DNA of 64,000 nt, taken from the NCBI RefSeq assembly GCF_000421465.1, contig NZ_ATXB01000001.1:372001-436000 (forward strand), in the 5' to 3' direction. This document shows, piece by piece, positions 26,896-52,223 of this stretch; position 1 is the stretch's first letter, and every line of letters begins with the position of its first letter. The notes below the pieces were generated by a model. The model did not search any database, had not been told where the DNA came from, and saw only the letters and a program-made list of their open reading frames with translations. This DNA comes from Methylohalobius crimeensis 10Ki (GTDB lineage: Bacteria; Pseudomonadota; Gammaproteobacteria; Methylococcales; Methylothermaceae). The translations under genes and the position numbers were made by a program.

Positions 26896-26985
26896 ATCGA
26901 GGAGCGGTCCATTCCATAAGGGAGCACCGAACATGGTCCATGACTGTACTGACTTTTTTGTATGGCAACCAACAAGAATCCCGTT

Positions 26986-28188
26986 ATGAATAAAATTTCC
27001 ATACAACGCTTAGTGCTCGGTTCATTCCTCGTCGGTTTGACCTTGATCTTCTCCGGCTGCGCGCTGCCCGTCCGGCAACCCGCCGTTCCTCAAGATTGGT
27101 CCGAGAAAGCCGAAGTGGTCGATGTCCCGGGAGTGCGCTACGTGGTTCGCACGGAAATGCCCGAGTTCAGCAAAGACGCGGTCGAGAGCTTTTATCGCGA
27201 ACGGACCTATCTCGCCGAGCAGGATCAAGGCGCCCCTCTGCCCCCGGCCATTTTCCTGGCCCTTTCCGGAGGAGGCGACGACGGCGCTTTCGGTGCCGGG
27301 CTTTTATGCGGTTGGACCGCTGCCGGCACCCGCCCCGAATTCAAAGGCGTGACCGGAATCAGCACCGGCGCCCTGATCGCGCCGTTCGCCTTTCTCGGGC
27401 CGAAATACGATTCCGTTCTCAGGCAGGTCTACACCGAGAGTTCGCCCAAGGATATTCTCCAACCGCGCAATCTGCTCGCTGCAGTGTTCAATGACGCCCT
27501 GGCCGACAATGCGCCCTTGCGGCGGTTGGTAGAGAAGCACGTGACCGAAGCGATGCTCGAGGAAATCGCGCGGGAGCACGCGCGGGGCCGAATGCTGCTG
27601 ATGGCCACCACCAACCTGGATGCGCGCCAGGCGGTCATTTGGAACATGACCAAGATCGCGGCCAGCGGCAACCCGAAGGCTCTGGAGCTGTTCCACAAGA
27701 TCATGCTCGCGTCCGCCGCCATTCCGGGTGCCTTTCCGCCGGTGATGATCGACGTGGAAGCGAACGGCCGGCGCTACCAGGAAATGCATGTGGACGGCGG
27801 CGCCATGGCGCAGGTTTTCCTCTACCCCCCCTCGCTCAAGGTGGCCGACCTCAGCCAACAACACGGGATCGTCCGCGAGCGTCGGCTTTATGTGATTCGC
27901 AATGCCCGTCTCGACCCCGAATGGGCGGAAGTGGAGCGCCGCACCCTGAGCATCGCCGGACGCGCCATTTCCTCGCTGATCCAAACCCAGGGCGTCGGCG
28001 ATTTGTACAAGATCTATCTCGAGGCCCAGCGCGACGGCATCGATTTCAATCTCGCCTATATCCCGAAAACCTTCAACGCTCCGCACGAGGAGGACTTCGA
28101 TACCGAGTACATGCGGAAGCTGTTTCAGACCGGTTACGAGCTGGCCGCCGAGGGCTATCGTTGGAAAGATAAGCCGCCGGGGCTGTGA
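26986..28188 (+). CDS. patatin-like phospholipase lipoprotein
   Basis: 400 residues from the ATG at 26986. The signal peptide ends in the lipobox IFSGC, so it is lipid-anchored. Patatin motifs follow: oxyanion loop LALSGGGDDGAFGAG near 90, nucleophile elbow GISTGALIAPF (G-x-S-x-G) near 125, and the catalytic Asp in MHVDGGAMAQ near 265. It should hydrolyse lipid acyl esters. A decayed second copy lies at 42710-43303. The ribosome site is weak. Confidence 0.88.
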   Translation: MNKISIQRLVLGSFLVGLTLIFSGCALPVRQPAVPQDWSEKAEVVDVPGVRYVVRTEMPEFSKDAVESFYRERTYLAEQDQGAPLPPAIFLALSGGGDDGAFGAGLLCGWTAAGTRPEFKGVTGISTGALIAPFAFLGPKYDSVLRQVYTESSPKDILQPRNLLAAVFNDALADNAPLRRLVEKHVTEAMLEEIAREHARGRMLLMATTNLDARQAVIWNMTKIAASGNPKALELFHKIMLASAAIPGAFPPVMIDVEANGRRYQEMHVDGGAMAQVFLYPPSLKVADLSQQHGIVRERRLYVIRNARLDPEWAEVERRTLSIAGRAISSLIQTQGVGDLYKIYLEAQRDGIDFNLAYIPKTFNAPHEEDFDTEYMRKLFQTGYELAAEGYRWKDKPPGL

Positions 28189-28312: not shown

Positions 28313-30682
28313 ATGCAAAAACATATACTCGCGCTGAAGGTCTTGACCGCTTTGGTGTTACTTGGCTGCGATCAACCGGCTGTCACTACGTCGGAAACGT
28401 CTCAAACGACCGTGGTCGATCGCACGGTGCTGCCGATCCCCGAACCCGAACGTCCGTTTTATACCGAGTTGGACGTGCGCAATGCAACGCCTCCGCCTCG
28501 GTTCGAGGTTAAGGCGCCGGAAGGCGCGCCGAATGTACTCGTCGTCTTGATCGACGACCTCGGCTTTGCCGGAACCAGTACCTTCGGCGGACCGGTCGGC
28601 ACGCCCACATTCGACCGCATCGCCAACGAAGGACTGCGTTACAACAACTTCCACACGACCGCCGTTTGCTCGCCGACGCGCGCCGCGCTCAAAAGCGGGC
28701 GCAACCACCATGTCGCCAACATGGGCGGGATTATCGAGACCGGGACAGCCTTTCCCGGTAACACCGGCCAGATTCCCAACACCGTTGCTCCGCTTGCCGA
28801 AATGCTGCGTCTCAACGGCTACAGCACCGGCGCCTTCGGCAAATGGCATGAACTCGCGGCCTGGGAGGCAAGCGTCTCCGGGCCACTCGATCGCTGGCCG
28901 ATTCATCAGGGATTCGACAAGTTCTACGGCTTCCTTGGAGGCGAAACCAACCACTGGGCGCCGTTCATCTACGACGGCGTACATCCGGTCGAGCTGCCGG
29001 ACGATCCAGAGTACCACTTTCTCTCCGACATGACCGACCAGACAGTTGGCTGGATCAAGTACCAAAAGGCGCTGACGCCGGACAAACCCTTCTTCGTGTA
29101 CTATGCGCCGGGCGCCACGCACGCCCCGCACCATGTGCCCAAGGAGTGGATCAACCGCTGGACCGGCAAGTTCGACCGGGGCTGGGATACGTTGAGAGAG
29201 GAGATTCTGACGCGGCAGATCGAGCGGGGCGTCGTCCCCGAGGGCACCACGCTTGCACCCAAGCCCGAAGCCATCCCGGATTGGGATTCGCTCCCGGCGG
29301 ATGAGAAGCGCCTATTCACGCGTCAGGCCGAGGTGTTCGCGGCCTTCGTTGAAATGACGGACCACGAGATCGGTCGGGTGATCAAGGCCATCGAAGCGAC
29401 CGGGCAGCTCGACAATACCTTGATCTTCCTGATTTACGGCGACAACGGCACCAGCGCCGAGGGCGGCCGCAACGGCATGTTCAGTGAAATGACCTATTTC
29501 AACCACGTGCAGGAGAAGGTGCCGGACATGCTCAAGGTCCTGGACAAGTGGGGCGGGCCCGAGACCTATCCGCACATGGCCGCGGGCTGGGCGGTGGCCT
29601 TCGATACCCCCTACCAGTGGACTAAGCAGGTCGCGTCCGACCACGGCGGTACCAAGGTCGGCATGGCGATCCGCTGGCCCCGCGGCATCAAGGCCAAGGG
29701 CGAACTGCGCACCCAGTTTCACCATGTGATCGATGTCGCCCCGACCATTCTCGAAGCCGCCGGCCTGCCCGAGCCCAAAATCGTCAACGGCACGCCGCAG
29801 CGCCCGATGGATGGGGTGAGCATGGTGTACAGTTTCGACGACGCCGAGGCGAAGGACCGGCACGTCACCCAGTATTTCGAGATGTTCGGCAACCGCGCCA
29901 TGTACCACGACGGCTGGTTCGCTCGCACCATCCACAGGGCGCCGTGGGAGATGAAGCCGCGCCGGACGCTCGCCGAGGATGTCTGGGAGCTCTATGACAC
30001 GCGCGAAGACTTCAGCCTGGTGAACGACCTGGCCGCGACCCATCCTGAGAAATTGGCCGAGTTGCAGGCCCTTTTTATGGAAGAAGCCGAGAAGAACCAT
30101 GTGCTGCCTATCGACGACCGCGTCGTCGAGCGCGTCAATGCGGCCTTGGCGGGCCGCCCCGACCTGATGGCGGGCCGCACTTCGCTGACCCTGACCGAAG
30201 GCATGACCGGCATGAGCGAGAATGTGTTCCTGAACATCAAGAACAAGTCCAAGACCATTACTGCCGAGGTGGAGGTGCCGGAGAGCGGCGCCAACGGTGC
30301 CGTCATCGTCCAGGGCGGACGGTTCGGCGGTTGGGCGCTGTACATCGAGGATGGCAAGCCGGCCTACGACTACAATTTCCTCGGCTTGCAACGCTTCACA
30401 ATTGCTTCGAGTGACAAACTCGAGCCAGGCCGGTCGACGATCCGTTTCGAGTTCGCCTACGACGGGGTCGGCATCGGCAAAGGTGGGTTGGGTACGCTGT
30501 TCGTCAACGACAAAAAAGTTGCCGAAGGTCGCATTGACCGCACGCAGCCCATGGTCTTCTCCGTCGACGAGACAGCAGACGTAGGCATCGATCTCGCAAC
30601 GCCGGTAGTCGAGACGATCGGATCCGAGGAGAAGTCGCGATTCACCGGCCGAGTTTCGAAGGTCACGGTCGAGGTGAAATGA
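28313..30682 (+). CDS. arylsulfatase (formylglycine-dependent), lipoprotein-type
   Basis: 789 residues. The N-terminus MQKHILALKVLTALVLLGCDQ ends in a lipobox-like LLGC. The alkaline-phosphatase-type fold starts APNVLVVLIDDLGFAGTSTFGG (metal-binding Asp pair), then the modification motif AVCSPTRAALKSGRNHH (C-x-P-x-R, Cys to formylglycine) near 110. GAFGKWHE, YGDNGTSAEGG and DHGGTK add further metal and substrate residues. The C-terminal ~150 residues form a lectin-like tail (GGWALYIEDGKPAYDYNFLGL). It hydrolyses sulfate esters; the substrate is unknown. The activating enzyme is encoded at 35246-36430. Confidence 0.9.
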   Translation: MQKHILALKVLTALVLLGCDQPAVTTSETSQTTVVDRTVLPIPEPERPFYTELDVRNATPPPRFEVKAPEGAPNVLVVLIDDLGFAGTSTFGGPVGTPTFDRIANEGLRYNNFHTTAVCSPTRAALKSGRNHHVANMGGIIETGTAFPGNTGQIPNTVAPLAEMLRLNGYSTGAFGKWHELAAWEASVSGPLDRWPIHQGFDKFYGFLGGETNHWAPFIYDGVHPVELPDDPEYHFLSDMTDQTVGWIKYQKALTPDKPFFVYYAPGATHAPHHVPKEWINRWTGKFDRGWDTLREEILTRQIERGVVPEGTTLAPKPEAIPDWDSLPADEKRLFTRQAEVFAAFVEMTDHEIGRVIKAIEATGQLDNTLIFLIYGDNGTSAEGGRNGMFSEMTYFNHVQEKVPDMLKVLDKWGGPETYPHMAAGWAVAFDTPYQWTKQVASDHGGTKVGMAIRWPRGIKAKGELRTQFHHVIDVAPTILEAAGLPEPKIVNGTPQRPMDGVSMVYSFDDAEAKDRHVTQYFEMFGNRAMYHDGWFARTIHRAPWEMKPRRTLAEDVWELYDTREDFSLVNDLAATHPEKLAELQALFMEEAEKNHVLPIDDRVVERVNAALAGRPDLMAGRTSLTLTEGMTGMSENVFLNIKNKSKTITAEVEVPESGANGAVIVQGGRFGGWALYIEDGKPAYDYNFLGLQRFTIASSDKLEPGRSTIRFEFAYDGVGIGKGGLGTLFVNDKKVAEGRIDRTQPMVFSVDETADVGIDLATPVVETIGSEEKSRFTGRVSKVTVEVK

Positions 30683-30713: not shown

Positions 30714-31295
30714 ATGAAATTCCTCCGGCGCACAATTGTAGGCGGACTCTTCGTCGTCTTGCCGGTGACCGCGATTCTGATTTTGCTGAAACGGGCCTTC
30801 GTATCGATTCACACGGCCCTCGAACCGTTCGCGGAGAGGCTGCCGTTCGAAGCCCTGTTCCCCGGATTGTGGGCCGTGACGGCGCTGGTGGCGATGTCGT
30901 TCGTCGCCGGTCTGATCCTGCAGTTCGGCCCGGTCCGGCGGATTAAAACCAGGGTCAGCGATAGTCTCGCCGAGCGATTCCCGTTCTACCGGTTTCTGCG
31001 CGGCTTCGGCGAGAATCTTGCGCAAAAGACCGGAAACCAACCGATTAAGGCGGCTTTCGCCGAGATCGAGGACGCGCTCGTTCCGGCCTTCGTGGTGGAG
31101 GAACTCGAAGACGGGCGATATGTGGTCTTCGTTCCGTCGGTGCCAAACCCCGTACAAGGCGCCATATACATCCTCGTCCGCGAACGGGTGCATTTGATCG
31201 ATGTCGGCCTTGGCCGGGTCGCGACCTGCGTTTCCCACTGGGGTGTGGGCTCGGAAGAACTGGTCAAGGCGATGCGGAAATCCACGCAACCATGA
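30714..31295 (+). CDS. DUF502 membrane protein
   Basis: 193 residues with the DUF502 start LRRTIVGGLFVVLPVTAILILLKRAF, a second helix (LWAVTALVAMSFVAGLILQFG), and a soluble C-terminal domain ending in VHLIDVGLGRVATCVSHWGVGSEELV. GGACGGCGGCG precedes the ATG. It overlaps the parvulin gene by ATGA. A relic of its 3' end is found at 43304-43374. Function of the family is unknown, though it is often near envelope genes. Confidence 0.85.
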   Translation: MKFLRRTIVGGLFVVLPVTAILILLKRAFVSIHTALEPFAERLPFEALFPGLWAVTALVAMSFVAGLILQFGPVRRIKTRVSDSLAERFPFYRFLRGFGENLAQKTGNQPIKAAFAEIEDALVPAFVVEELEDGRYVVFVPSVPNPVQGAIYILVRERVHLIDVGLGRVATCVSHWGVGSEELVKAMRKSTQP

Positions 31296-32131
31296 GATCC
31301 TGGCTGAAAGAACCCTTGATACATTTCTTGCTGGCGGGCGGCTTGCTGTTCGCCGCTTACGCATGGTTCCATCAAGGAGAGGGAGGCGACGCGCGCGTCG
31401 TGCGCATTACCGCGGAGGAACTTGGCTGGCTCAAGGAAACCTGGGCGCGGCAGTGGCACCGGCCGCCCGATGAGCGGGAGTTTCGCAACCTCGTCAACGA
31501 CTACTTGAAGGAAGTGTTGCTCGCCCTGGAGGCGCGTGAATTGGGCCTGGACGAAAACGATACCGTGGTCCGGCGGCGCTTGGCTCAGAAGATGGCCTTT
31601 CTCGTCCAGGACACTGCGAGCCTGGCCGAACCGGCGGAGACGGAATTGCGCGAGTTCTACGATGTCACGCGCGCGCATTATCGGATTCCGGCGCGCATTT
31701 CGTTCACTCAGATTTTCTTCGACACCGAATCGTCCGCGCGGCAAGGACTGAAAGAAATCGCGACCCGCCGCCCGGCCGAATTGGGGGACCGGATTCTGTT
31801 GGAACGGCATTTCGAGGGGGCCGACGAACAGGCGGTGGCGAGCCTGTTCGGGCGCGAGTTCGCCGAGACCGTTTTTGCCCTCGAGCCTGGGTCGTGGCAC
31901 GGTCCGGTCGAGTCGGGCTACGGCTTCCATCTCGTTAGAATCGGCGGGCGCCAGGCCGCCCGGCAGCGTCCGTTCGAAGAAGTCCGGACGCAGGTGCGGG
32001 AGGCGTGGCAGCGGTCGCGGCAAGCCGAAGCCGGCGAACGGTATTTCGCCGAATTGTTGAAGAAGTACGACGTCATCGTGGACGGAGGGTCGGCAGCGCC
32101 TCTCGCAACACGGCGGGAGACGGGGCGATGA
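31292..32131 (+). CDS. PpiC-type (parvulin) peptidyl-prolyl isomerase
   Basis: 279 residues. An N-terminal helix (HFLLAGGLLFAAYAWF) anchors it. The SurA/PpiD-like helical N-domain follows (EFRNLVNDYLKEVLLALEARELGLDENDTVVRRRLAQKMAFLV). The parvulin core then covers residues ~130-225 (ARISFTQIFFDT ... FGREFAETVFALEPGSWHGPVESGYGFHLVRIGG). It probably helps fold exported proteins. Both ends overlap neighbours by ATGA (DUF502 before, HupE-like after), indicating one operon. Confidence 0.85.
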   Translation: MRSWLKEPLIHFLLAGGLLFAAYAWFHQGEGGDARVVRITAEELGWLKETWARQWHRPPDEREFRNLVNDYLKEVLLALEARELGLDENDTVVRRRLAQKMAFLVQDTASLAEPAETELREFYDVTRAHYRIPARISFTQIFFDTESSARQGLKEIATRRPAELGDRILLERHFEGADEQAVASLFGREFAETVFALEPGSWHGPVESGYGFHLVRIGGRQAARQRPFEEVRTQVREAWQRSRQAEAGERYFAELLKKYDVIVDGGSAAPLATRRETGR

Positions 32132-32685
32132 AAGGCGCGTGGCTCGCGATCCTGTGTCTTGCCGCCGCCCCCCTGTTCGGGCACGAGTTGCGCCCGGCGT
32201 ATCTCGAAATGCACGAAGAAAAGGCCGGCGAGTTTCGCGTGCTTTGGAAGACGCCGATGCGCGGTGGCATGCGGCTGGCGCTGTCGCCGCGATTCTCCGG
32301 AGAAATGGCGAATCTCACGCCGATCGTCACCCACCCGGCCGAAAACGCCGCGGTGCAGACGTGGCGAATGAAGCCTTTGGAGACGCTGCGTGGGCAAGAG
32401 GAGCGCATCGCCGGGCTGGAGGGCACCATGACCGACGCCCTGGTTAGAGCCGAATTCGCCGACGGCACCGCCTGGACGCAGCGGCTGACGCCGGGGCGAC
32501 CGGCGGCGCGGATACCCGTGCGCGCATCCTGGCCAGCGGTCGCGGGGGTGTATTCCAAGCTCGGCGTCTTCGCCGTCGCTCGCCGCATCCGCACACGGCT
32601 TCCTTGGTGGACGGAACTCGCAGCACCTTATGCCATCGGAAGCGTCGCCATGTTCTGGGTTTTTCAACGCGTGGCCTTATTTTGA
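32128..32685 (+). pseudogene. HupE/UreJ-like protein with internal deletion
   Basis: 185 residues from the ATG at 32128. A signal peptide and the beta-rich HupE/UreJ N-domain (GHELRPAYLEMHEEKAGEFRVLWKTP) are intact. After RASWPAVAGVYSKLGVFAVARR the protein jumps to what looks like the family's C-terminal end (WWTELAAPYAIGSVAMFWVFQRVALF). The central multi-helix membrane region, about 150 residues, is missing. The reading frame is kept, so a shortened protein could still be made. Family role (metal or urea transport) cannot hold without the membrane core. Confidence 0.65.
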
Positions 32686-32711
32686 AACCCTATCGAGAAG
32701 GGAGAATAGAG

Positions 32712-34657
32712 ATGAAGACACGACTGGTTCTTACCACGATATTGGCAACGTTGTTGGCCGTCGGCGTGCCGCCGCAAGTATGCGGGCACGACGCGGGCCA
32801 ACTCGACAGGCAGACGGCCGGGAAAGTGTATTCCGCCAAGCCGGTTTATTCGCCTTATCCGGGCGCGATTTCCCCACCCGTCCTTTCTTCGGCGACACTC
32901 ATCTTCACACCGCATTTTTCATGGACGCGGGGGCATTCGGTGCGCGCCTGACGCCGCGCGACGCCTACCGCTTCGCCCGCGGCGAGGAGGTGACGGCGTC
33001 CAGCGGCCAGCCCGTCAAGCTTTCCCGTCCGCTCGATTTTCTCGTGGTGGCCGATCACTCGGACGGCTTCGGTTTCTTTCCGTTGCTGGTCGGCGGCGAT
33101 CCCAGGATCATGGCGGACGCGCAAGGCCGCAAGTGGCACGACATGATCCATTCCGGCAAAGGCGCGGAGGCGGCCATCGAGATCATCACCCACTTCGGCA
33201 AGGGAACCATCTCCAAGGCCATCATGCCCCTTCCCGGCACCTCCGCCTACCGCGGCGCCTGGCAGGAAACCATCAAGGCGGCCGAGGAAGCCAACGATCC
33301 GGGGCGCTTCACGGCCTTCATCGGCTATGAATGGACCTCCAACACCGGCGGCAACAACCTGCACCGCAACGTCATATTTCGCGACGACGGCGACAAGGCA
33401 AGCCGAGTCGAACCGTTTACCACGATGAAGCCCCTGGGCAGCGATAACCCGGTGGATTTGTGGAAGTGGATGGCCGCCTACGAGGAAAAGACCGGCGGCG
33501 ACGTGCTGGCCATCGCCCACAACGGTAATCTGTCCAACGGCCGCATGTTTCCGTTCGTGGAGGCTTTCGGCCGCAAGATCGACCGCACCTATGCCGAGGC
33601 GCGCGCCAAGTGGGAGCGGCTCTACGAAGCGACTCAAACGAAAGGGGACGGCGAGACCCATCCCTTCCTCTCGCCCAACGATGAATTCGCCGATTTCGAG
33701 ACGTGGGATAAGGGCAACCTCGACGGCAGCGTGGCCAAGACCCGGGACATGCTCCAGTTCGAATATGCGCGTTCAGGCCTGAAGCTCGGTCTGAGCCTGG
33801 AGCAAAAACTGGGCGTCAATCCTTACAAATTCGGCATGATCGGCAGTTCCGACGCGCATACCGGACTGGCCGCCATGGAAGAGGAGAATTTCTTCGGCAA
33901 GACCACGCCGCAGGAACCCGGTCCGGAACGGATGACCCATACCTTCTTCGACAATGCGAAGACCGGCGTGAAGGTCATGGACTCGGAAGTCTCCGCATCC
34001 GGTTACGCCGCCGTGTGGGCCACCGAGAATACGCGCGAAGCCTTGTTCGACGCGATGGAACGGCGGGAAACCTACGCCACCACCGGGCCACGCATGATCG
34101 TGCGCTTCTTCGGCGGCTGGGAGTTCGAGCCCGGGGACGCACAGAGCCGCCTGCCGGCCGCCGTGGGCTACAGCAAAGGGGTGCCCATGGGCGGCGATCT
34201 GAGGGGTGCGTCCGCCGGCAAGCAGCCGACGTTTCTGGTCGCGGCCCTGCGCGACCCCATCGGAGCCAATCTCGATCGCATTCAGATCGTCAAAGGCTGG
34301 CTCGACGCCAAAGGCGAAGTGCATGAAGAAGTCTACGACGTCGTTTGGGGCGACGCCGACAAGCGCCGGCCCGATGAGAGTGGCAAACTCCCGCCGGTCG
34401 GCAGTACCGTGGACGTTGAAAACGCCATCTGGACCAACACGATCGGCGACCCGGAACTGATTACGGTGTGGAAGGACCCGGCCTTCGATGCGAAGCAGCG
34501 CGCATTCTATTACGCCCGCGTGATCGAGATTCCAACCCCGCGCTGGACCGCCTACGACGCCAAACGTTTCGGGGTGAAGCCCCTTCCCGGTACCAAAATG
34601 GTACTGCAGGAACGCGCCTACACGTCACCGATCTGGTATGCGCCAGCCACGGAATAG
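32712..34657 (+). pseudogene. DUF3604 exported protein, frameshifted near its N-terminus
   Basis: The start at 32712 has GGGAGAATAGAG upstream and reads a signal peptide (MKTRLVLTTILATLLAVG) to VYSPYPG near 32866. The frame then breaks. The family body continues in another frame as RDFPTRPFFGDTHLHTAFFMDAGAFG, through VVADHSDGFGF and IGSSDAHTGLAAMEEENFFG, to the stop at 34657. One extra G in the GGG run near 32866 would restore an approximately 648-residue exported protein with a metal-dependent hydrolase look (DTHLH, DHSD, SDAH). Either recently inactivated or a sequencing error. Confidence 0.8.
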
Positions 34658-34688: not shown

Positions 34689-35129
34689 GTGAACGACGAC
34701 ATCGGCGCGAGATTGACCAACACCGTCAAGCACTTTGCACCGAAACCCGAGTTTGTCTTTTATCCGGCGGGCTTTACGGCGGCTACTCGCTTTATGTCGT
34801 CGACTATCGGCTGGCCTGCAACGAAGACCGATTTCAGATCCGATCGAACGGGCCGCTGCCGGTTGGTGAAGTGGAGCTAAAGGCTGTCTATGAAGCCCAT
34901 GAGGACCGGACCGGGACCGTTACGCTGTATGTCAATGGCGAACAAGTCGGGGAAGGGGAAGTCGGCCGCACCATGCCGGGAACCTTCTCGCTGTCCGAAA
35001 CGTTCGACGTCGGGGTGGTCGGGGGTGGATACCGGCACGCCGGTCTCGCGGGACTACACGCGCGACAATGCGTTCAGCGGTACTCTCGATCGGGCGGTCG
35101 TTTCCTTGAAACCCGTGACGGTCAAATAG
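34689..35129 (+). pseudogene. relic of an arylsulfatase C-terminal domain
   Basis: No intact gene. In shifting frames the DNA reads as the lectin-like tail of an arylsulfatase: GGLYGGYSLYVVDYRLACNE, then GTVTLYVNGEQVGEGEVGR, then (after a frameshift near 35025) DTGTPVSRDYTRDNAFSGTL. The intact paralogue tail is at ~30300-30680. The upstream catalytic part is absent. Confidence 0.7.
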
Positions 35130-35245
35130 ACCACCGCAGCTCGCCGTCTAATCTGACCTGTTGAGTTGCACTTGCGAGTTGAGTCCAGGCTGTTTGTTTT
35201 GGATTTCGATACTCGGATTTCTAATTTCTACCGTTGAGGCGGGAG

Positions 35246-36430
35246 ATGAGCAAAAAGTCAAAGCGCAAAAAACAGCCTCGGCCTGTCCGGAACTCCAAAG
35301 CCGGACTCACCTGGCTGATGTTGGTGTTGGCTGCGGTGGCAGTCGCGGGTGGCTGGGCCATCTATGCAGCCACGCGTCTGGCGCCGAGGGTTCAGACCGA
35401 GCCGATGGAAGCCGTGACAGGCGCGTTCCAGCCAACTGTTGCCAACGCGGCGACCCTGCCAGGCCCGGCTCCCGAGGGCATGGTCTGGATTCCTGGCGGG
35501 GAATTTTCGATGGGCGCCGTCGATCCCCTCGGGCGGGACAGGAACGCCGTGGGGATGCATGCCACGCGTGACTCGCGGCCGATTCATCGGGTTTATGTGG
35601 ACGGTTTATGGATGGATAAAACCGAAGTGACGAATGCACAATTCAGGAAGTTCGTTGAGGCGACCGGTTATGCCACGGTGGCCGAGCGCGTACCCACACA
35701 GGAGGAATTCCCGAATGCGCCGCCGGAAAACCTAATCGCGGGATCGGTGGTCTTTTCCCCACCAGACCAAGCCGTTTCGCTGAATAACTATTTTCAGTGG
35801 TGGAGTTATGTCGTTGGTGCGAACTGGCGCCATCCACTGGGACCGGAGAGTGACCTCAAGGGGCGTGAGAATTACCCCGTCGTACATATTGCCTATGAGG
35901 ATGCAGTCGCCTATGCCAAATGGGCGGGAAAACGCCTGCCCACCGAGGCGGAATGGGAGTTCGCCGCGCGCGGTGGACTGTCGGGCAAAATCTATCCCTG
36001 GGGGGATAAGTTCCTCAAGGACGGTCAGTGGATGACCAATAGCCATCAGGGTCATTTCCCCAATCAAGACACGGGAGATGACCGACATCAAGGAATCGCG
36101 CCGGTGGCGCAGTATCCACCGAACGACTACGGACTGTACGACGTGGCGGGCAACGTGTGGGAATGGACGAGCGACTGGTATCGGCCCGATTACTACACGT
36201 CATTGGCCGCCTTGGGCGAAGTGGCCCGCAATCCGCGTGGCCCCTCTTCTTCATCCGATCCCGCCGAACCCGGTGTTCCGAAGCGCGTTCACCGCGGCGG
36301 GTCATTTTTGTGCACGGAACAATATTGCTCCCGCTATATGGTCGGCACGCGGGGCAAGGGTGAGCCCAGCACAGGAACGAATCATCTGGGTTTTCGCTGC
36401 GTGAAGTCCGCATCGGATCCCGGTAGATAA
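35246..36430 (+). CDS. formylglycine-generating enzyme (sulfatase-modifying factor)
   Basis: 394 residues from the ATG at 35246 (GAGG upstream). A basic N-terminus and one transmembrane helix (LTWLMLVLAAVAVAGGWAIYAA) precede the FGE domain: MVWIPGGEFSMGAVDP, DKTEVTNAQFRKFVEATGY, RLPTEAEWEFAARGG, NVWEWTSDWY. The active-site region FLCTEQYCSRYMVGTRG keeps both cysteines of true FGEs, ending NHLGFRC. It should oxidise the Cys of the C-x-P-x-R motif in the nearby arylsulfatase to formylglycine. It sits amid sulfatase relics. Confidence 0.9.
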   Translation: MSKKSKRKKQPRPVRNSKAGLTWLMLVLAAVAVAGGWAIYAATRLAPRVQTEPMEAVTGAFQPTVANAATLPGPAPEGMVWIPGGEFSMGAVDPLGRDRNAVGMHATRDSRPIHRVYVDGLWMDKTEVTNAQFRKFVEATGYATVAERVPTQEEFPNAPPENLIAGSVVFSPPDQAVSLNNYFQWWSYVVGANWRHPLGPESDLKGRENYPVVHIAYEDAVAYAKWAGKRLPTEAEWEFAARGGLSGKIYPWGDKFLKDGQWMTNSHQGHFPNQDTGDDRHQGIAPVAQYPPNDYGLYDVAGNVWEWTSDWYRPDYYTSLAALGEVARNPRGPSSSSDPAEPGVPKRVHRGGSFLCTEQYCSRYMVGTRGKGEPSTGTNHLGFRCVKSASDPGR

Positions 36431-36837: not shown

Positions 36838-37551
36838 ATGGCAAATCCTGTCCATATCAATAAAAAAATCTATGGCATTTTCGGGCTGCTTCTGACTGCA
36901 TCGATCATGGGTGGGTGCGCTTCGACCAAACAGGCGAGGGATGTCGAACCGTCCGGCTTCCTGGGGGATTACTCGATGCTTCGGGAAGGGCGGGAGGGCG
37001 AGGCGCTCATGCTCTACATCCACCCGGATTACGAACGCGCCTGCCAATCCTACGACAAGGTTTTGATCGACCCCGTCACCCTTTGGGCGACGGAAAACAG
37101 CGATTTGGCCGAACTGCCGGCCGAAGATCGGCAGGCCCTGGTCAACCATCTGCACGGTTCGCTGGTGAGCGAGTTGGGTAAATACTACCGAATCGTGCAG
37201 ACGCCCCGGCCCGGAACCCTACGGGTCCGGGCGGCGATCACCGAGGCGGAGGGTTCCTGGGTGACGCTGGATACCGTCTCGTCGTTCGTGCCGCAGATGC
37301 TGGTCATGTCCAAGCTCAAGGAAGTGGCGACCGGAACGGCGGCATTCGTCGGCAAGGCCAGCGCCGAAGCCGAGATAATCGACATTGCGACCGGCGAACG
37401 GATCGCCGCGGGCGTCGACCGCCAAGTAGGGGGCAAGACTTTCAGCGGCGTCACCAAACAATGGAACGACGTGGAGACCGCCTTCGACCTCTGGGCGAGA
37501 CGTTTGGCTTACCGTTTGGCGAACTGCGGTGCCATGCTGCCGGAAGAATAG
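36838..37551 (+). CDS. DUF3313 lipoprotein, copy 1
   Basis: 237 residues. The start at 36838 is chosen by alignment with copy 2 at 43399; the upstream frame to 36442 runs through relic DNA. The signal peptide ends in the lipobox IMGGC. The DUF3313 body includes FLGDYSMLREGREGEALMLYIHP, SYDKVLIDPVTLW and NHLHGSLVSELGKYYRIVQ, and ends DLWARRLAYRLANC. Function unknown. The next gene is a glycine-zipper protein, an order repeated in decayed form at 43399-44203. Confidence 0.85.
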   Translation: MANPVHINKKIYGIFGLLLTASIMGGCASTKQARDVEPSGFLGDYSMLREGREGEALMLYIHPDYERACQSYDKVLIDPVTLWATENSDLAELPAEDRQALVNHLHGSLVSELGKYYRIVQTPRPGTLRVRAAITEAEGSWVTLDTVSSFVPQMLVMSKLKEVATGTAAFVGKASAEAEIIDIATGERIAAGVDRQVGGKTFSGVTKQWNDVETAFDLWARRLAYRLANCGAMLPEE

Positions 37552-37624
37552 AGTTGGAAGTGCAATTTAATCGCATAAGCCAAACATCCGATGCAAAGCA
37601 TTAAATTAAATAGGAGGAATGAAC

Positions 37625-38011
37625 ATGTTAAACAGACTAATCCGTAGAACGATAGTCACCGGCGTGTTATTGGCCGGAGTGGGGTCTCCGACTGCCTGGG
37701 CGCAGGGGGATCTGATGATCTATCCCAAAGCCGGACAAAGTCCCCAACAGCAGCAGCAGGACCGCTATCACTGCCATACCTGGGCCGTCCAGCAGTCCGG
37801 CTTCGATCCTTCCAATCCACAGGCTCAAGCGTCGATCGCCGGCGATGCCGGCAAGGGGGCGGCCATCGGCGCCATCGCGGGCGGGATGGGCCGCGCATTC
37901 AAGGAGCGGGACCGGCAGATGCAATCCGCGCCTGCGAGCCCGCCCGGCCGCGACAACTATAACCGGGCCATGGCTTCCTGCCTGGAGGCGCTCGGGTATT
38001 CGGTGAAATGA
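37625..38011 (+). CDS. exported YMGG-like glycine-zipper protein
   Basis: 128 residues from the ATG at 37625 (AGGAGG 7 nt upstream; ATG 37619 is too close to it). A signal peptide ends near PTAWAQG. A Gln-rich stretch, a paired-Cys feature (HCHTW and ASCLEALGY) and the glycine zipper GDAGKGAAIGAIAGGMGRAF follow. Such proteins insert in or lie on the outer membrane. A relic of its middle part is found at 44104-44203. Confidence 0.8.
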   Translation: MLNRLIRRTIVTGVLLAGVGSPTAWAQGDLMIYPKAGQSPQQQQQDRYHCHTWAVQQSGFDPSNPQAQASIAGDAGKGAAIGAIAGGMGRAFKERDRQMQSAPASPPGRDNYNRAMASCLEALGYSVK

Positions 38012-38050
38012 CGCCAAGTTTCGATCCATATCCTCGGAGGAGGGTGACCA

Positions 38051-39726: not shown

Positions 39727-39874
39727 GCAGGCGGTGCCAAGTGGCCATGACCCCATGTTATGAAAAGACGAATAAGTTTCAAACCTTCTATCGGGCTATC
39801 GGGCTATCGGGCCGAGCGATTGTCCCGTCCCCTGCTGCATTTCCCATCCATAAATTTACAAGAGGAGATCCGTC

Positions 39875-40585: not shown

Positions 40586-40638
40586 GTCGGCCCTACCGTT
40601 GGAATAACAAGCTTGATTACAAAGGGGGCTAGCGGATC

Positions 40639-41265: not shown

Positions 41266-41538
41266 AAATTGCTCTGATCTCCGAAATGAAAGGAGAGTGA
41301 CCGATGGCTCCGCGCGGCCGGTTGTGCTGCTGGAGACAAGCCCAGATGCTCTCGGCACGCCGGCCACGTGAATGGTTTGAATCCTGTGCCGGTCTCGATC
41401 GAGTTCGATTGCGCCCAACCGGCTGAAATATGGACGATTTCCCGATTCGACGGTTTGCGAATGGTTCGGTTCGTCGTAGTGTCGTTCGCCGCCGCTATTA
41501 AGAAAAACCAACCCAACCCGAAAATAAGGAGAACTGCC

Positions 41539-42585
41539 ATGACCGTTAAAAACGGTTTTTTCACATCCGTCAAACCCATAGTGGTTGTCGCAGCCTTGTC
41601 GGCGATCTCGACTTTCCATGATGCCGAAGCCACCGAAGGTGGCATGAGCCATTACGTTCCCGGCGCTTACAACGATTTCTTCATGAATTTGCAGGTCGAT
41701 CCCGGTTTTTATTTCCGCGACGATCTCATGTATTACAACGCTCAATTCCCGAATGAAGTGACCTTGGGTAGGAATATCGTCGCCAATGCCGATCTGGCCA
41801 TGTGGACCACTACCTTCAAATTGGTCTATGTCAGCGATTTTGAAATCCTTGGCGCGCGCTATGGAGCCGGCTTGTTTCTGCCGGTGGTGTTCGATGCCAA
41901 AGTGGAAGCCCGACTGGAAGCGGGGCCCTTCCTGGGAGGGAGATCATTTTCCATGCAAGGAGAGGACAACCGGGGTGGCGTGGGCGATCTGGTGATCCTG
42001 CCCCTGTCGCTCACCTGGAAATGGGGCGATTTCAATATCAATCTGAGCGAGGCGGTCTTCATGCCGAGCGGCTTTTACGATAAGGACGAAATCGTCAACC
42101 TGGGGCGCAATCACTGGTCCTTCGACACCATCGTGGGGCTGACTTGGCTCCATCCGACCCGCGGCCACGAAATCTCGTTCAACGTCGGTTTCATGAGCAA
42201 CACCGTGAACGACGCCACTCAGTACCAGAGCGGTGACGAATTCCACCTGGATTACACCGTAGCCCAACACTTTTCCGAGGAATTCGGCGTCGGGGTCACC
42301 GGTTACTACTACAACCAGCTCAGCGATGACGAGGGGCCGCTGTTGGATCGATTGCAGCAGTTTGTGGATACGCGCAATCAGCGGCGACAGGCACTGGGAC
42401 TGCCAGCGCTTTCGAATGTGGGAGGCTTCCAAGGGGAAGCCATTGGCATTGGCCCCATCGTCCGCTACAGTCCCAAATTCGGCGACAAACAGATCCATTT
42501 CATCGGCAAATGGATCCATGAATTCAACGTAGAAAACCGTTTCGAGGGCGAGATTGGCATGCTCTCGGTTGCGTTTGATTTTTGA
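41539..42585 (+). CDS. outer-membrane beta-barrel protein (MetA-pathway/phenol-degradation family)
   Basis: 348 residues from the ATG at 41539 (AAGGAG upstream). A signal peptide ends near ATEGG. The rest shows alternating aromatic-polar beta strands ending in the outer-membrane signature SVAFDF. HYVPGAYNDFFMNLQVDPGFYFRD is typical of the phenol-degradation MetA/transporter barrel family. It likely forms a channel for hydrophobic or aromatic compounds, or acts in lipid export (inference). Confidence 0.8.
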   Translation: MTVKNGFFTSVKPIVVVAALSAISTFHDAEATEGGMSHYVPGAYNDFFMNLQVDPGFYFRDDLMYYNAQFPNEVTLGRNIVANADLAMWTTTFKLVYVSDFEILGARYGAGLFLPVVFDAKVEARLEAGPFLGGRSFSMQGEDNRGGVGDLVILPLSLTWKWGDFNINLSEAVFMPSGFYDKDEIVNLGRNHWSFDTIVGLTWLHPTRGHEISFNVGFMSNTVNDATQYQSGDEFHLDYTVAQHFSEEFGVGVTGYYYNQLSDDEGPLLDRLQQFVDTRNQRRQALGLPALSNVGGFQGEAIGIGPIVRYSPKFGDKQIHFIGKWIHEFNVENRFEGEIGMLSVAFDF

Positions 42586-42709
42586 GCTTCGATTTTCGAT
42601 AGTCTCGCTGAGAGGTTCCGATAGCCCTGGGGATTGACAATCCATCCCCTCGGAAGGTCAAGTTTAGTGTTAGGATTCGCTTGTATCTCCGGTTTTTGGG
42701 AAGGTAGCT

Positions 42710-43303
42710 ATGGGACGCTTTGGTTTTTGTTTAATCTTGATCGCTAAAGAAGTGTCGCTAGGACGAAGGAGGGAGCAGGTCGGTTCGATCCTTGTCGGAG
42801 CGATCCTGTTACTCTCCGGCTGTTCGTTGCCGGTTCGGAGACCCGCCGTTCCCTCGGCTTTGTCGAACAATGCCGAAGTAGTCGGCATGCCGGGAGTACG
42901 ATATGTGGTCCGCGAAGAAATGCCGGAATTCACTCGAGACGCGATCGAAAGTTATTATCGGGAACGAGCCTATTTCGCCGAGCAAGGCCATGACGCCACC
43001 TTGCCTCCGGAGAGGGGTGTTGTGCGGCTGGACTGTGGGCCGGTACCCGTCCCGAATTCAAAGCGGTCACCGGGATCAGCACCGGCGCGTTGATCGCCCC
43101 GTTCGCTTTTCTGGGGCCGGAATACGATACCCAACTGAGAGAGGTTTATACCCAAACCGCTCCCAAGGACATTTTGGAAGCGCGCAATCAACGACCCGCA
43201 CAAGGAGAACTTCGATACCGAGCACATGCGGAAACTGTTTCAGACCGGATTCGAGCTCGCCGCCGAGGGTTATCGTTGGGAGAAAGCGCCGCCGGGGCTG
43301 TGA
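42710..43303 (+). pseudogene. decayed patatin-like gene (copy of 26986-28188)
   Basis: The N-terminal third is close to the intact copy (lipobox LLSGCSLPVRRPAVP, VPGVRYVVREEMPEF-like). Two deletions have removed the oxyanion loop near 43015 and some 200 residues between the matches to PKDILxxRN (43190) and to DTEYMRKLFQTG (43215). Frames shift at both. The last codons match EGYRWEKAPPGL and stop at 43303. Confidence 0.85.
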
Positions 43304-43374
43304 CGGGTTGCTAGCTGCGTTGCCCACTGGGTGGGGGTTCGAAAGAGCTGATGAAGGCGATGCGGAAATCATGA
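43304..43374 (+). pseudogene. relic of the DUF502 3' end
   Basis: Base-level resemblance to 31220-31290: CTGCGTTGCCCACTGGG and GGCGATGCGGAAATC are retained. In the intact cluster a sulfatase gene separates patatin from DUF502. Here it is missing, so the copy lost it. Confidence 0.75.
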
Positions 43375-43398
43375 GCATCACCGATCGGGAGGTTCAAA

Positions 43399-44103
43399 AT
43401 GGGAAATTCTGTCAATCGAAAGATCCATGGCATTTTCGGGCTGGTTCTGACTGTAATTCTCCTGGGAGGGTGCGCATCGACCAGGCAGGCGAGGGATGTC
43501 GAAGCGGCCGGTTTCCTGGGGGATTATTCGATGCTCCGGGAAGGGGGCAAGGGAGAGGCGCTTAGGGTCTACATCAACCCGAAATATGAACAGACCTGTA
43601 ATTCCTATGACAAGGTTATGATCGATCCCGTCGCCATATGGGTTCGTGAAAACGATGGCTTGGCCGAGATTCCGTCCGAGGAACTGCAGAGACTGGTCAA
43701 CTACCTGCACGGTTCGCTGGTGAGCGAATTGGGTCAATACTACCGGATCGTGCAGACGCTTCAACCGGGAACCTTACGGATCAGAGGGGCGATCACCGAG
43801 GCGGAGGGTTCCTGGGTGACACTGGATATGGTCTCGTCGTTTATGCCGCAGATGCTGGTGATGACTAAGCACAAGGAGTTGACGCCCGGAACCGTGAAAT
43901 TCATCAGTACGGCCAGCGCCGAAGCCGAGATTGTGGATGCCGTGACCGGCGAACGGATTGCCGCGGCCGTCGACCGCCGAGTGGTGGACAAGGCGCCCGG
44001 CGGGGTTACCGACCGTTGGAACGAGGTAGAGACGATCTTCGACTTCTGGGCGAGACGATTGGCTTACCGGTTGGTGAACTGTGGTGCGATGCCGCCGGAG
44101 TAG
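43399..44103 (+). CDS. DUF3313 lipoprotein, copy 2
   Basis: 234 residues, GGGAGG 6 nt upstream. Lipobox ILLGGC. It is a clear paralogue of the 36838 gene, sharing RQARDVE, GFLGDYSMLREG, HGSLVSELG, TEAEGSWVTLD and RRLAYRL. The frame is intact while the genes around it have decayed, so it may be retained by selection. Function unknown. Confidence 0.85.
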   Translation: MGNSVNRKIHGIFGLVLTVILLGGCASTRQARDVEAAGFLGDYSMLREGGKGEALRVYINPKYEQTCNSYDKVMIDPVAIWVRENDGLAEIPSEELQRLVNYLHGSLVSELGQYYRIVQTLQPGTLRIRGAITEAEGSWVTLDMVSSFMPQMLVMTKHKELTPGTVKFISTASAEAEIVDAVTGERIAAAVDRRVVDKAPGGVTDRWNEVETIFDFWARRLAYRLVNCGAMPPE

Positions 44104-44203
44104 AGGACAGCGTCCCCCCTGTAACAGCAGCAGGACCGCTATAACTCCATATATGGGCCGTTCAGCAATCCGGCTTCGATCCGTCCAGTCCGTCGGCCGG
44201 CAA
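44104..44203 (+). pseudogene. relic of the glycine-zipper gene
   Basis: CAGCAGCAGGACCGCTAT, ATGGGCCGT and CCGGCTTCGATCCGTCCAGT match 37740-37815 of the intact glycine-zipper gene. No start or end remains. It follows DUF3313 copy 2 exactly as the intact gene follows copy 1. Confidence 0.8.
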
Positions 44204-44399
44204 TTCCCCACTGGCAGAATAAAGTGAGAAAAAGATCCCATGTCGTTATAGAGGGATTTGAAAATTAGGTGCCAGTGGGGCTATTTTCAATTTGCGTTGA
44301 CTTTCTTGGAGGCCAGAATTGCCTTCGGTTTGCCAGTAGGAACTCATTGATTGAGTGGTTTTGAGAAAAAATTGCGTATTTTTCAAAAAGGAGATGCTT

Positions 44400-45176
44400 A
44401 TGACTAAGCTCGGTCTTGTAGTGGCGGCTATATGCCTTGCGAGCAGTCCGGCCTGGGCCGGTCAGGGGAAAGATAATATCGCCGGGGTGGCACGAGCCGA
44501 CTTCGATTTGGAAACGTTAACGATACCTTGCGTCAAAGTGGAAAATTTGGACGATGACCTGGACGGAAAGTATTATGACGTAGAATTGGAGCGGCGAGGC
44601 AAATCATTCAATTTCGAACTCAAATTAGCTAAGCCGGAAGATTCGGCCTATTGTGAGAAAGTAAACAATTTCTCCAAATTCGAAGACGACGATTTCGACG
44701 ATGAGGATTCTTCGGACGATGACGCCTCCACCTCGAGCGACACCTCCAAAATCTTCGTTTCTTGCGAGCGGGAGACGGATCGTTCCGAAGTCTCGGTCAA
44801 TGCCAAGAATCTGGTTCCCGGAAACTATTCGGCGATGATCACCTCCGGCGCCAATACGGCCACCAGTTTCTCCATGCCTTCCGACGACGATGAAGTCGAA
44901 TTCGACTTCGACAGCGATCCCGATGACATCATGGAAGGAGACAATGAAATCGGTCCCGATTTCATCCAGCAAGGGACGGTATCCGCCGAGATTTTCGATG
45001 CAGATAGCGAAACCGTCGTATCCGTTGACGCGGTAACGTGTGAAATCGATGACGACTCCTCGGACGACGACTCCTCGGATGACGACTCCTCGGATGACGA
45101 CTCCTCGGATGACGACTCCTCGGATGACGACTCCTCCGCACCTTCGGCAAGCAAAGACAGAGGTCGTCCCTTTTAA
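44400..45176 (+). CDS. exported Asp/Ser-rich acidic protein
   Basis: 258 residues from the ATG at 44400 (AAAGGAG 6 nt upstream). Signal peptide MTKLGLVVAAICLASSPAWA. The mature protein is very acidic, with clusters such as FEDDDFDDEDSSDDDAS and DDDEVEFDFDSDPDD, and ends in a run of six DDSSD-type units before a basic tail. Four well-spaced Cys (PCVKVE, AYCEKV, SCERET, TCEIDD) may form disulfides. A calcium- or cation-binding, surface-exposed role is suggested by composition only. A terminator follows. Confidence 0.8.
   Translation: MTKLGLVVAAICLASSPAWAGQGKDNIAGVARADFDLETLTIPCVKVENLDDDLDGKYYDVELERRGKSFNFELKLAKPEDSAYCEKVNNFSKFEDDDFDDEDSSDDDASTSSDTSKIFVSCERETDRSEVSVNAKNLVPGNYSAMITSGANTATSFSMPSDDDEVEFDFDSDPDDIMEGDNEIGPDFIQQGTVSAEIFDADSETVVSVDAVTCEIDDDSSDDDSSDDDSSDDDSSDDDSSDDDSSAPSASKDRGRPF
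45048..45137 (+). repeat. 15-bp tandem repeat, six copies
   Basis: Unit GATGACGACTCCTCG (one copy with GAC, the last ending CC) repeated six times without gaps, encoding (DDDSS)n in the acidic protein. Copy number is likely variable. Confidence 0.92.
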
Positions 45177-45204
45177 TCCTCTATATTGAGCGATTTCACA
45201 TAAT

Positions 45205-45232
45205 AAAAGCGCGCCGTAATGGCGCGCTTTTT
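45205..45232 (+). terminator. rho-independent terminator of the acidic-protein gene
   Basis: AAAAGCGCGCC, five-base loop GTAAT, GGCGCGCTTTTT: a strong stem with T-tract 29 bp after the stop. Confidence 0.9.
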
Positions 45233-45368
45233 GATTCCATCTTCGGCCTCAGTTAATAGAGCTTGTTTGGTTCTCCATCTCTCTTGAACGTGTTTGCTTC
45301 CAAAACGCGGATATGCGGCGCTCATTTGGAGTGTATCATTTAGCTTGTCAAGACCTCGCTTTCCCCGC

Positions 45369-45430
45369 GCTCACCCCCACGAATCAGGCTTAGAGCCATG
45401 ATCCACGATCACCGCATCCCCTGAAAAAGG
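45369..45430 (-). mobile_element. short relic of an IS4-type transposase
   Basis: About 60 bp resemble the 13760-13830 part of the complete IS4 transposase gene (shared GCTCACCC, ATCAGGCT, GATCCACGA, CACATCCCC-like blocks, AAAAGG), with small gaps. It lies in the 270-bp gap between the two terminators. The rest of the gap holds nothing recognisable. Confidence 0.55.
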
Positions 45431-45505
45431 GCTTAACACATGGAGACTACCAAATTTTCGTCAATGGAAATCTTCGAACGACCATTTCCATTCCCTGACT
45501 GAGCA

Positions 45506-45531
45506 TAAAAAAGCGCGCCCGAAGGCGCGCA
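45506..45531 (-). terminator. rho-independent terminator of clpB
   Basis: On the minus strand GCGCGCC TTCG GGCGCGC followed by TTTTTT: a UUCG-capped strong stem 26 bp after the clpB stop. Confidence 0.9.
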
Positions 45532-45556
45532 AGTGGGAGTAAGCAAGGCGGGTGAA

Positions 45557-48136
45557 TCAGTCCTTGTGGAACACGATTTTGCCGTCTTCCGCATCGGCGA
45601 CGATGGTATCGCCCGGGCCGAATTTGCCCGCCAGGATTTCCATCGCCAACGGTTCCTCGATGAGGTGCTGGATCGCCCGGCGCAGGGGCCGCGCGCCGAA
45701 GACCGGGTCGTAGCCCCCCTCGGCGACGATGTCCAGCGCGCCTTCGGTGAGCTGCATGGCCATTTCCCGTTCCTCCAGACGCTGCTCCAGAAGGGCGATC
45801 TGCAGCCGGGCGATGCGATGAATGTGCTCCCGTCCCAGCGGGTGGAACACCACGATCTCGTCGATCCGGTTGACGAATTCCGGCCGGAAGTATTGATTGA
45901 CGTAGCTCATGACCTCTTTTTTGATCACCGGATAGTCGGCCGATTCCTGTTCCAATTCCTGAATCCGGTCGGAGCCCAGATTGGAGGTCATGATCACCAC
46001 CGTGTTGCGGAAATCCACCGTGCGCCCGTGACTGTCGGTGAGCCGCCCGTCGTCCAGGATCTGGAGCAGGATGTTGAACACGTCGGCGTGGGCCTTTTCC
46101 ACCTCGTCGAACAGGATCACCGAGTAGGGCTTGCGCCGCACCGCTTCGGTCAGATAGCCGCCTTCCTCGTAGCCCACGTAGCCCGGCGGCGCCCCGATCA
46201 GGCGGGCGACGGCGTGCTTTTCCATGAATTCCGACATGTCGATGCGGATCATGGCGCGTTCGGTGTCGAACAGGAACTGGGCCAGGGCCTTGCACAGCTC
46301 GGTCTTGCCCACCCCGGTGGGACCGAGGAACAGGAACGATCCGGTGGGCCGGTTGGGATCGGACAGCCCCGCCCGCGACCGGCGGATGGCGTTGGCCACC
46401 GCGGTGACCGCCTCGTTCTGCCCCACCACCCGGCGATGGAGCTGATCTTCCAGGTGGAGCAGCTTCTGCTTCTCGCTTTCCAGCATCTTGGAGACCGGGA
46501 TGCCGGTCCATTTGGAGACGATCTCGGCGATTTCCTCCTCGCCCACCTTGTTGCGGAGCAGCTTGAAGTCCTTTTGCTCGGCCTCCTGGGCGGATTTGAG
46601 CTGGCCTTCCAATTGCGGAATCATGCCGTATTGGATTTCCGCCATTCGCTGCAGGTCGCCGGCGCGCTTGGCGTTTTCCAGTTCCAGCCGGGCTTGGTCC
46701 AGCTTTTCCTTGATCGAGTGGGCGCCTTGTAGGGACGCTTTTTCCGCCTTCCAGATTTCCTCCAGCTCGGAGTATTCCCGCTCCAGCTTGTCGATCTCTT
46801 CCTCGAGCGTGTCCAGGCGCTTTTTGGAGCCCGGATCGGTCTCCTTCTTGAGCGCTTCGCGCTCGATCTTGAGCTGGATCAAGCGCCGATCCAGGCGGTC
46901 CATGGATTCCGGCTTGGAGTCGATTTCCATGCGGATCTTGGCCGCCGATTCGTCGATCAGGTCGATGGCCTTGTCCGGCAGCTTGCGGTCGGTGATGTAG
47001 CGATGGGACAGGTTGGCGGCGGCGATGATCGCCGAGTCGGTGATCTCCACCCCGTGATGGAGCTCGTAGCGTTCCTTGAGGCCGCGCAGGATGGCGATGG
47101 TGTCCTCCCGATTGGGTTCGTCTACGATGACCATCTGGAAGCGGCGTTCCAGGGCGGCGTCCTTTTCGATGTATTTGCGGTATTCGTCCAGGGTGGTGGC
47201 GCCGATGCAGTGGAGCTCGCCGCGCGCCAGGGCCGGCTTGAGCATGTTGCCGGCATCCACCGCCCCTTCCGCCTTGCCGGCGCCGACGATGGTGTGGATT
47301 TCGTCGATGAACAAAATCACCTTGCCTTCCGCCTTGGCGATGTCGTTGAGCACCGCCTTGAGGCGCTCCTCGAATTCGCCCCGGAACTTGGCCCCGGCGA
47401 TCAGGGCGGCCATGTCCAAGGACAGAATCCGCTTGCCGCGCAGACCCTCGGGGACTTCGCCGTTGACGATGCGCTGGGCCAGTCCCTCCGCGATGGCGGT
47501 CTTGCCCACCCCGGGTTCGCCCACCAGGCAGGGATTGTTCTTGGTGCGCCGCTGCAGGATCTGAATGGTGCGGCGGATTTCCTCGTCGCGGCCGATGACC
47601 GGGTCGAGTTTGCCCTGTTCGGCGCGCTCGGTCAGGTCGATGGTGTATTTTTCCAGCGCCTGGCGCTGCTGTTCGGCGTCCTGGTCGGTGACATTCTCGC
47701 CGCCGCGGATCTCGTCGATGGCCTTCTCGATCAGACTGCGGGTGGCACCGGCCTTGTTCAGGGCCTCCGCCAAGGGGCCCTTGTCCTCCAGCGCCGCGAG
47801 CACGAATAGTTCGCTGGAGATGTAGGTGTCGCCGCGCTTCTGGGCGAGCTTGTCGGTCAGGTTCAGGATCCGCCCCAGGGCGTTGGAAACAACGACCTCG
47901 CCGCCGGTCCCTTCCACGGTGGGGAAGCGGTCGAGCTGCTTGCCCAGTTCGGTGCGCAGTTGATTGACGTTGGCGCCGGCCTTGGTCAGCAGCGGGCGCA
48001 CGGTCCCGCCTTCCTGATCCAGGAGCGCGATCATTGCGTGTACCGGTTCGATGAACTGGTGGTCCTTGCCCAGTGCCAAGCTCTGCGCGTCGGACAGGGC
48101 TTCCTGGAATTGGGTGGTGAGTTTGTCCATTCGCAT
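45557..48136 (-). CDS. clpB: ATP-dependent disaggregase ClpB
   Basis: 859 residues, the normal length. N-domain ([34 protein letters not shown]), NBD1 with Walker A GEPGVGKT and Walker [10 protein letters not shown], a long coiled-coil middle domain ~400-525 ([23 protein letters not shown]), then NBD2 with GPTGVGKT and [11 protein letters not shown], and the C-terminal small domain ([18 protein letters not shown]). It rescues aggregated proteins together with DnaK. A heat-shock-type promoter lies just upstream and a strong terminator follows. MRMDKLT allows starts at 48136 or 48130. Confidence 0.97.
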
Positions 48137-52212: not shown

Positions 52213-52223
52213 ATTAGATGAAT

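Follow-up and report, generated by a model that had tools for sequence, protein, structure and literature searches.

The window analysed here is a stretch of 64,000 nucleotides (C1:372001-436000, C1 denoting the contig) from the genome of Methylohalobius crimeensis 10Ki, which comprises 3,509,607 bases in 5 contigs, in agreement with the published description of five contigs and 3.5 Mbp (PMC4463540). Two related blocks of genes lie in it on the plus strand: (i) copy A (27017-37818), the larger, upstream counterpart, and (ii) copy B (42780-44191), located 5 kb downstream in the same orientation and comprising five pieces that match copy A. A blastn comparison of 40501-46000 with 24001-39000 places the five matches on one strand and in one order, including 42780-43189 with 27017-27472 in the patatin gene (68%, 48 gap positions), 43188-43303 with 28073-28188 at the patatin 3' end (86%), 43304-43370 with 31215-31282 in the tail of a DUF502-like gene (84%, 68 columns), 43377-44099 with 36816-37544 across DUF3313, the largest match (79%, 729 columns), and 44125-44191 with 37751-37818 in a glycine-zipper gene (88%, 68 columns). 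The bit scores of the five real pieces are 636, 183, 138, 84.2, and 70.7, whereas the best chance score in 200 Markov versions of the copy B region, compared on the plus strand only, is 33.7 bits. The collinear order of patatin, DUF502, DUF3313, and glycine-zipper genes given in the original prediction, together with its coordinates and gene list, is borne out, four of the five pieces falling outside DUF3313; a lack of collinearity there, which would have spoken against the claim, was looked for and is not what the comparison returned. Several genes share the same order and orientation, the property by which a segmental duplicate is recognized. A genome-wide DNA search with 26455-31300 and 36800-42650, the segments on either side of 31301-36799, returned copies A and B and one 52-bp match to the glycine-zipper gene at C1:690105, and no homologue of the left (42586-42790) or right (44180-44420) flank of copy B was found at E 0.1 among 144 loci fetched from other genomes.

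The intact patatin gene of copy A (26962..28188; PF01734, 74.4 bits) displays a lipobox-like SGC, read by eye. Its counterpart in copy B comprises (i) a 5' piece (42780..43010) that matches 27017-27247 at 73% identity with no indel, (ii) a rearranged junction (43011..43038) in which 28 bases stand in place of 74 in copy A, with a net loss of 46 nt, a frameshift, and the disappearance of an SGGGDDGAFGA stretch, (iii) a middle piece (43039..43187) that matches 27322-27470 and keeps the GISTG motif, and (iv) the 3' end with the stop codon (43188..43303), matching 28073-28188 and preceded by a loss of 602 nt. The homology begins only at 27017, so the 5' end with the start codon region is also gone; a patatin described as doubly deleted has lost this end in addition to the 28-for-74 replacement and the 602-nt segment. 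We take SGGGDDGAFGA to be the patatin glycine-rich stretch and the DGG region to be the catalytic-aspartate region, both of which are lost from copy B. With its frame disrupted and essential parts gone, the copy B patatin is classed as a pseudogene.

The retained patatin codons carry the marks of selection. Mismatches between the two copies number 34/20/59 at codon positions 1/2/3, out of 165/167/166 sites, an excess at third positions over first and second positions with a p of 2.6e-6, and the A-B dN/dS is 0.21 (0.13-0.33). None of the 162 retained copy B codons is a stop, and 46 of the 48 columns invariant among 17 homologues are kept in copy B, compared with 47/48 in copy A. Estimated for the B branch only, dN/dS has a wide interval (0.08-1.85), 4% of resamples reaching 1 or more. 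Since a patatin dead from the start would spread its mismatches over the codon positions, this pattern points to a copy B patatin that was long constrained. Near the 3' end, third-position differences fall to 7/39 from 52/127 elsewhere (p 0.012, uncorrected), and gene conversion between A and B in this segment is noted as a possible cause rather than claimed.

The DUF502-like gene of copy A (30714..31295) encodes a protein that scores 14.4 bits against DUF502 (PF04367), under the cut-off of 23.8, and the product of the copy A glycine-zipper gene (37619..38011) reaches 12.9 against a cut-off of 27 bits for Gly-zipper_OmpA (PF13436). Copy B retains the tail of the former (43304..43370, matching 31215-31282 with one 1-nt deletion), 501 nt of the gene being absent, and a relic of the latter (44125..44191, matching 37751-37818, again with one 1-nt deletion). 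The homology and the loss attributed to these two genes are well founded, whereas the family labels, both below Pfam cut-offs, are weaker.

Copy A alone contains genes with Pfam matches for a sulfatase (28313..30682), a PpiC-type peptidyl-prolyl isomerase (PPI; 31292..32131), DUF3604 (32630..34657), and an FGE-sulfatase, or sulfatase-modifying factor (35234..36430), in addition to a HupE/UreJ-like gene with its core missing (32122..32685), for which no Pfam match was obtained and which was recognized by comparison with a Rhizobium homologue; the product is presumably HupE. In blastn, these five genes give no DNA match above chance in copy B. The PPI, HupE-like, and DUF3604 genes are adjacent on a Rhizobium gallicum plasmid, where DUF3604 is 75% identical to that of copy A and no other gene of the cluster occurs within the 9.4 kb read. 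Copy A is itself eroded, including (i) the HupE-like gene, about 151 residues short of the Rhizobium gallicum plasmid homologue, (ii) a remnant of a further sulfatase, from its C-terminal part (34754..35117; E 8.5e-13) between the DUF3604 and FGE-sulfatase genes, and (iii) a glycine-zipper protein without at least 25 residues that are present in 18/18 orthologues. The claim that only the second DUF3313 copy survived holds for copy B, but copy A is no pristine reference against which to read it. The cluster products include patatin, sulfatase, sulfatase-modifying factor, DUF2092, DUF4410, a MetA-family protein, and a sigma-54 activator, and the cluster codes for envelope-type proteins and one regulator.

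The intact gene of copy B (DUF3313-B, 43399..44103) encodes a predicted lipoprotein of 234 aa that scores 135.2 bits against PF11769 (cut-off 26.1) and covers profile positions 2-187 of 187; the Shine-Dalgarno-like sequence GGGAGG (43387..43392) stands 6 nt upstream of its start. By the lipobox rule, the LLGGC in the sequence supplies the lipobox cysteine, C25, which is nearly invariant in 22 sequences. Within 42500-44500, three promoter-like sites occur where 1.0 is expected, and no terminator-like site was found where 2.3 are expected. The start of the copy A gene (DUF3313-A, 36838..37551) was chosen by alignment with copy B, the longest open reading frame (36442-37551) overstating the gene. 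The comparison of the two genes gives a dN/dS of 0.39 (0.26-0.58), indicative of purifying selection, and the B branch 0.30 (0.17-0.59), both below 1; the gene proposed as intact in the second copy is so by reading frame and family score. Among the columns invariant in 18 orthologues, copy B keeps 69/75 and copy A 72/75; in a leave-one-out comparison most orthologues keep a larger invariant share than copy B, only that of Methylobacter marinus being lower (75/88). No other pair among the 10 compared (0.06-0.41) has a ratio as high as that of A and B, which, with the 69/75 columns kept, points either to a loosened constraint or to diversification of both copies. Taken together, these codon statistics indicate relaxed but real purifying selection on DUF3313-B.

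Close DUF3313 orthologues (E < 1e-100) occur in 18 of the 310 other genomes of the order, all in one family (f8, Methylomonadaceae as inferred from names), and none of nine same-genus genomes has a DUF3313 match at E 0.001. Each of the 18 genomes displays one DUF3313 match at E 1e-45, followed by a glycine-zipper gene in 18/18 regions read, and a patatin gene lies alongside in 1/18, three of the loci having less than 1 kb of upstream sequence. Among 20 DUF3313 loci in named genomes, the five closest (66-71%) belong to Methylobacter marinus, Methylomicrobium sp. wino1, two other Methylococcales, and one gammaproteobacterium, and the other 15 (33-54%) to other phyla or deltaproteobacteria. The locus of M. 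marinus A45 (L040, the same place as L093 in G469) comprises, in that order, patatin (75%), DUF3313 (71% to A, 66% to B), glycine zipper (63%), DUF2092 (70%), a glycine-rich protein (49%), and sulfatase (69%), with full-length reading frames for patatin, DUF3313, glycine zipper, DUF2092, and sulfatase. In contrast to M. crimeensis, M. marinus A45 has patatin immediately before DUF3313 and only one DUF3313 of this type, and at the thresholds applied a DUF502-like gene is absent from both its locus and its genome. In a further relative, G474, patatin is adjacent to sulfatase, as in copy A. These loci tie DUF3313 to a recurring patatin, DUF2092, and sulfatase neighbourhood in methanotrophs.

The common ancestry of the two blocks is supported by their collinear homology and by the DUF502-like tail. 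A search with the DUF502-like protein through 311 genomes of the order gave no strong match outside this genome, two others showing 28-32% identity, and no relative was detected in the plasmid collection at E 1e-3; the tail of this gene in copy B can thus be regarded as a shared derived trait and is the best single sign of a putative private ancestor of A and B. The proposal of a segmental duplication fares less evenly, with the DNA and patatin trees joining A and B and the DUF3313 protein trees failing to do so. The DUF3313 DNA tree makes A and B sisters (97/96), the alternative of B with M. marinus just escaping rejection (p-AU 0.0525) and that of A with M. marinus reaching 0.0193, in an alignment where the base composition of copy A is flagged as unlike the rest; the patatin tree likewise unites A and B (94/75), the other pairings having p-AU of 0.10 and 0.26, neither rejected. 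On the other hand, the DUF3313 protein trees place B with M. marinus, both with outgroups (84/86; A and B together in 3% of bootstrap trees) and without them (80/64; A and B together in 18%, p-AU 0.32, not rejected), and the shared protein residues leave the matter nearly undecided (27 for A-B, 26 for A-M. marinus, 16 for B-M. marinus). Such protein trees are consistent with two imports, copy B being what remains of a cluster acquired first, and copy A a later arrival from a related methanotroph, via homologous recombination beside it. This history also accords with the synonymous divergence of A and B, whose dS is 0.44 in DUF3313, 0.78 in the patatin pieces together, and 0.31 in the last patatin piece (A versus M. 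marinus, 0.63 for DUF3313 and 1.18 for patatin); the range of 0.4-0.8 resembles values between species of one genus, such as the 0.59 of one orthologue pair (L100-L105). The distribution of DUF3313, absent from the same-genus genomes and with its 18 close orthologues in another family, speaks in the same direction, but the DNA and patatin trees speak against it, and the DUF502-like gene, without a comparable match elsewhere in the order, would oblige both imports to draw on an unsampled donor type. Two imports appear rather unlikely, and a duplication in the lineage or its donor is favoured, rather than proven, as about twice as probable.

The extent of what was duplicated bears on the same history. 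Three stretches of copy A are absent from copy B, namely 3026 nt from the patatin stop to the DUF502-like tail, 5533 nt from this tail to DUF3313, and 206 nt from DUF3313 to the glycine-zipper piece; the two large gaps have four edges between them, three of which are the patatin stop, the last DUF502-like codons, and a point 22 nt before the DUF3313 start, and at the four copy B junctions other than 43011-43038 microhomology amounts to 2 nt at one and none at three. Because these three edges coincide with gene boundaries or fall close to them, and M. marinus displays the order patatin-DUF3313-glycine zipper, duplication of the whole of 26986-38011 is not established: copy A may have gained the extra genes later, or copy B may have lost them when both patatin and DUF3313 were still required. 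Under the former possibility, compatible with either origin of the copies, a compact order of patatin, DUF502-like, DUF3313, and glycine-zipper genes would be ancestral, the sulfatase gene and the PPI-HupE-DUF3604-FGE set having been inserted into copy A once the two copies had separated. The gap edges, the M. marinus order, which continues with DUF2092, and the occurrence of PPI-HupE-DUF3604 as a separate module on the Rhizobium plasmid agree with it; however, patatin is followed directly by sulfatase in G474, the missing 501 nt of the DUF502-like gene require at least one deletion in copy B, an ATGAG after the tail in copy B could, weakly, be the start of the next copy A gene, and selection on a working patatin and DUF3313 would likewise put deletion edges at gene boundaries. 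We rate this compact ancestry at slightly short of an even chance. Far less credible is a duplication of the whole of 26986-38011 followed by passive decay of the second copy from the start, DUF3313 staying intact by chance: collinearity is in keeping with it, but the third-position excess and the dN/dS of 0.21 in the patatin pieces, and the upper limit of 0.59 on the DUF3313-B branch, make it highly improbable.

The losses of the patatin, DUF502-like, and glycine-zipper genes in the second copy, and the survival of its DUF3313, are seen in the sequence, whereas the idea that decay followed directly upon duplication is at odds with the long purifying selection borne by the patatin pieces. The codon statistics support a patatin copy B that broke late, after long function. 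By simple arithmetic rather than a fitted model, in which the branch-share average takes 0.15-0.2 for the time under constraint and 1 for the time without it, with an upper limit of 0.33, the unconstrained share of the patatin B branch would be at most about 1/3 to somewhat over 2/5. The preferred account, which we hold to be moderately probable, regards 42780-44191 as what is left of an old second set of the patatin, DUF502-like, DUF3313, and glycine-zipper genes, duplicated in the lineage or its donor, that decayed late and retained DUF3313-B. The copies would have arisen by duplication in the lineage or a recent donor, near the split from the cluster version of M. marinus, and the second copy would have worked for most of its life, its patatin codons being constrained as in copy A, as seen for the A-B pair with a wide error on the B branch. 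Later deletions, small and medium in size, would have taken (i) the patatin start, glycine-rich loop, and catalytic-aspartate region and (ii) the greater part of both the DUF502-like and the glycine-zipper gene, the losses themselves being observed and their order conjectural, leaving DUF3313-B as the only intact gene, with a ribosome-binding-type sequence of its own; it was probably retained to act with DUF3313-A, as a subunit or through dosage, as its predicted fold suggests. Against this account counts the patatin-DUF3313 order that M. marinus shares with copy B, and against a single duplication free of later exchange the unequal dS among the pieces (0.78, 0.31, 0.44). The finding is of an ordinary kind, a doubled cluster that was partly lost, its less usual turn being the late decay for which the codon statistics speak; it provides a clear case of a doubled bacterial cluster losing its genes one at a time, in which, by the same statistics, a broken gene was under selection for most of its history.

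A structure model of DUF3313-B, built from 22 sequences with moderate confidence (mean pLDDT 73.4), resembles the outer-membrane lipoproteins TraT (Z 10.7, rmsd 6.0, 137 aligned), PelC (Z 9.7, rmsd 4.6, 131 aligned), and PqiC (Z 8.3, rmsd 3.4, 122 aligned), with 10-16% identity in the structural alignment rows. PelC is also the best Foldseek match (E 1.6e-4), at a low TM-score of 0.30 by query, and the DUF3313 sequence gave no match at E 1 among the solved structures of the PDB set. The structure entry titles describe TraT decamers and PelC dodecamers, and DUF3313-B probably encodes an outer-membrane-anchored lipoprotein of this ring-forming TraT/PelC/PqiC fold, a predicted fold by which DUF3313 is linked to ring-forming outer-membrane lipoproteins. 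The setting differs from the known systems, no transfer, pel, or pqi family being present among the DUF3313-B neighbours scanned with Pfam. As a Z near 8 can mean a common arrangement only, and a shared fold shows no function, a ring role is one that we infer, and DUF3313-B is proposed to have been kept as a spare or mixed ring subunit. A bolder version, in which the two DUF3313 proteins have diverged as subunits that share a single outer-membrane lipoprotein ring and the second cluster, once a full parallel system, was stripped to its ring subunit, is improbable.

The surroundings place both blocks in a larger insertion. The end of the left host gene (C1:353994) and clpB (C1:417557) are 63.6 kb apart here, compared with 0.8-3.3 kb in three of six same-genus loci (G003, G009, G001), and this spacing places both copies within an island, or insertion run, of roughly 62 kb; among the remaining loci, clpB was seen without the left gene nearby in G008 and G002, and the contig ends too soon in G006. 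Copy B lies at the right end of the island, beside a gene (44355-45176) whose homologue adjoins clpB in one of the six loci (G001). No tRNA was found as an island end in the window or in the left-part loci (L156, L157). The island (C1:354000-416300, its right part corresponding to window positions 1-44350) also contains genes of type I restriction (HSDR_N, Methylase_S) and a gene of the RhuM family. An element that encodes a DDE_5 transposase occurs as two copies in inverted orientation (8908-10364 and 54646-56102, 98% over 1457 nt) that flank both clusters, and a 55-bp direct repeat, 94.5% identical, is found at 52222-52276 and 63845-63899.
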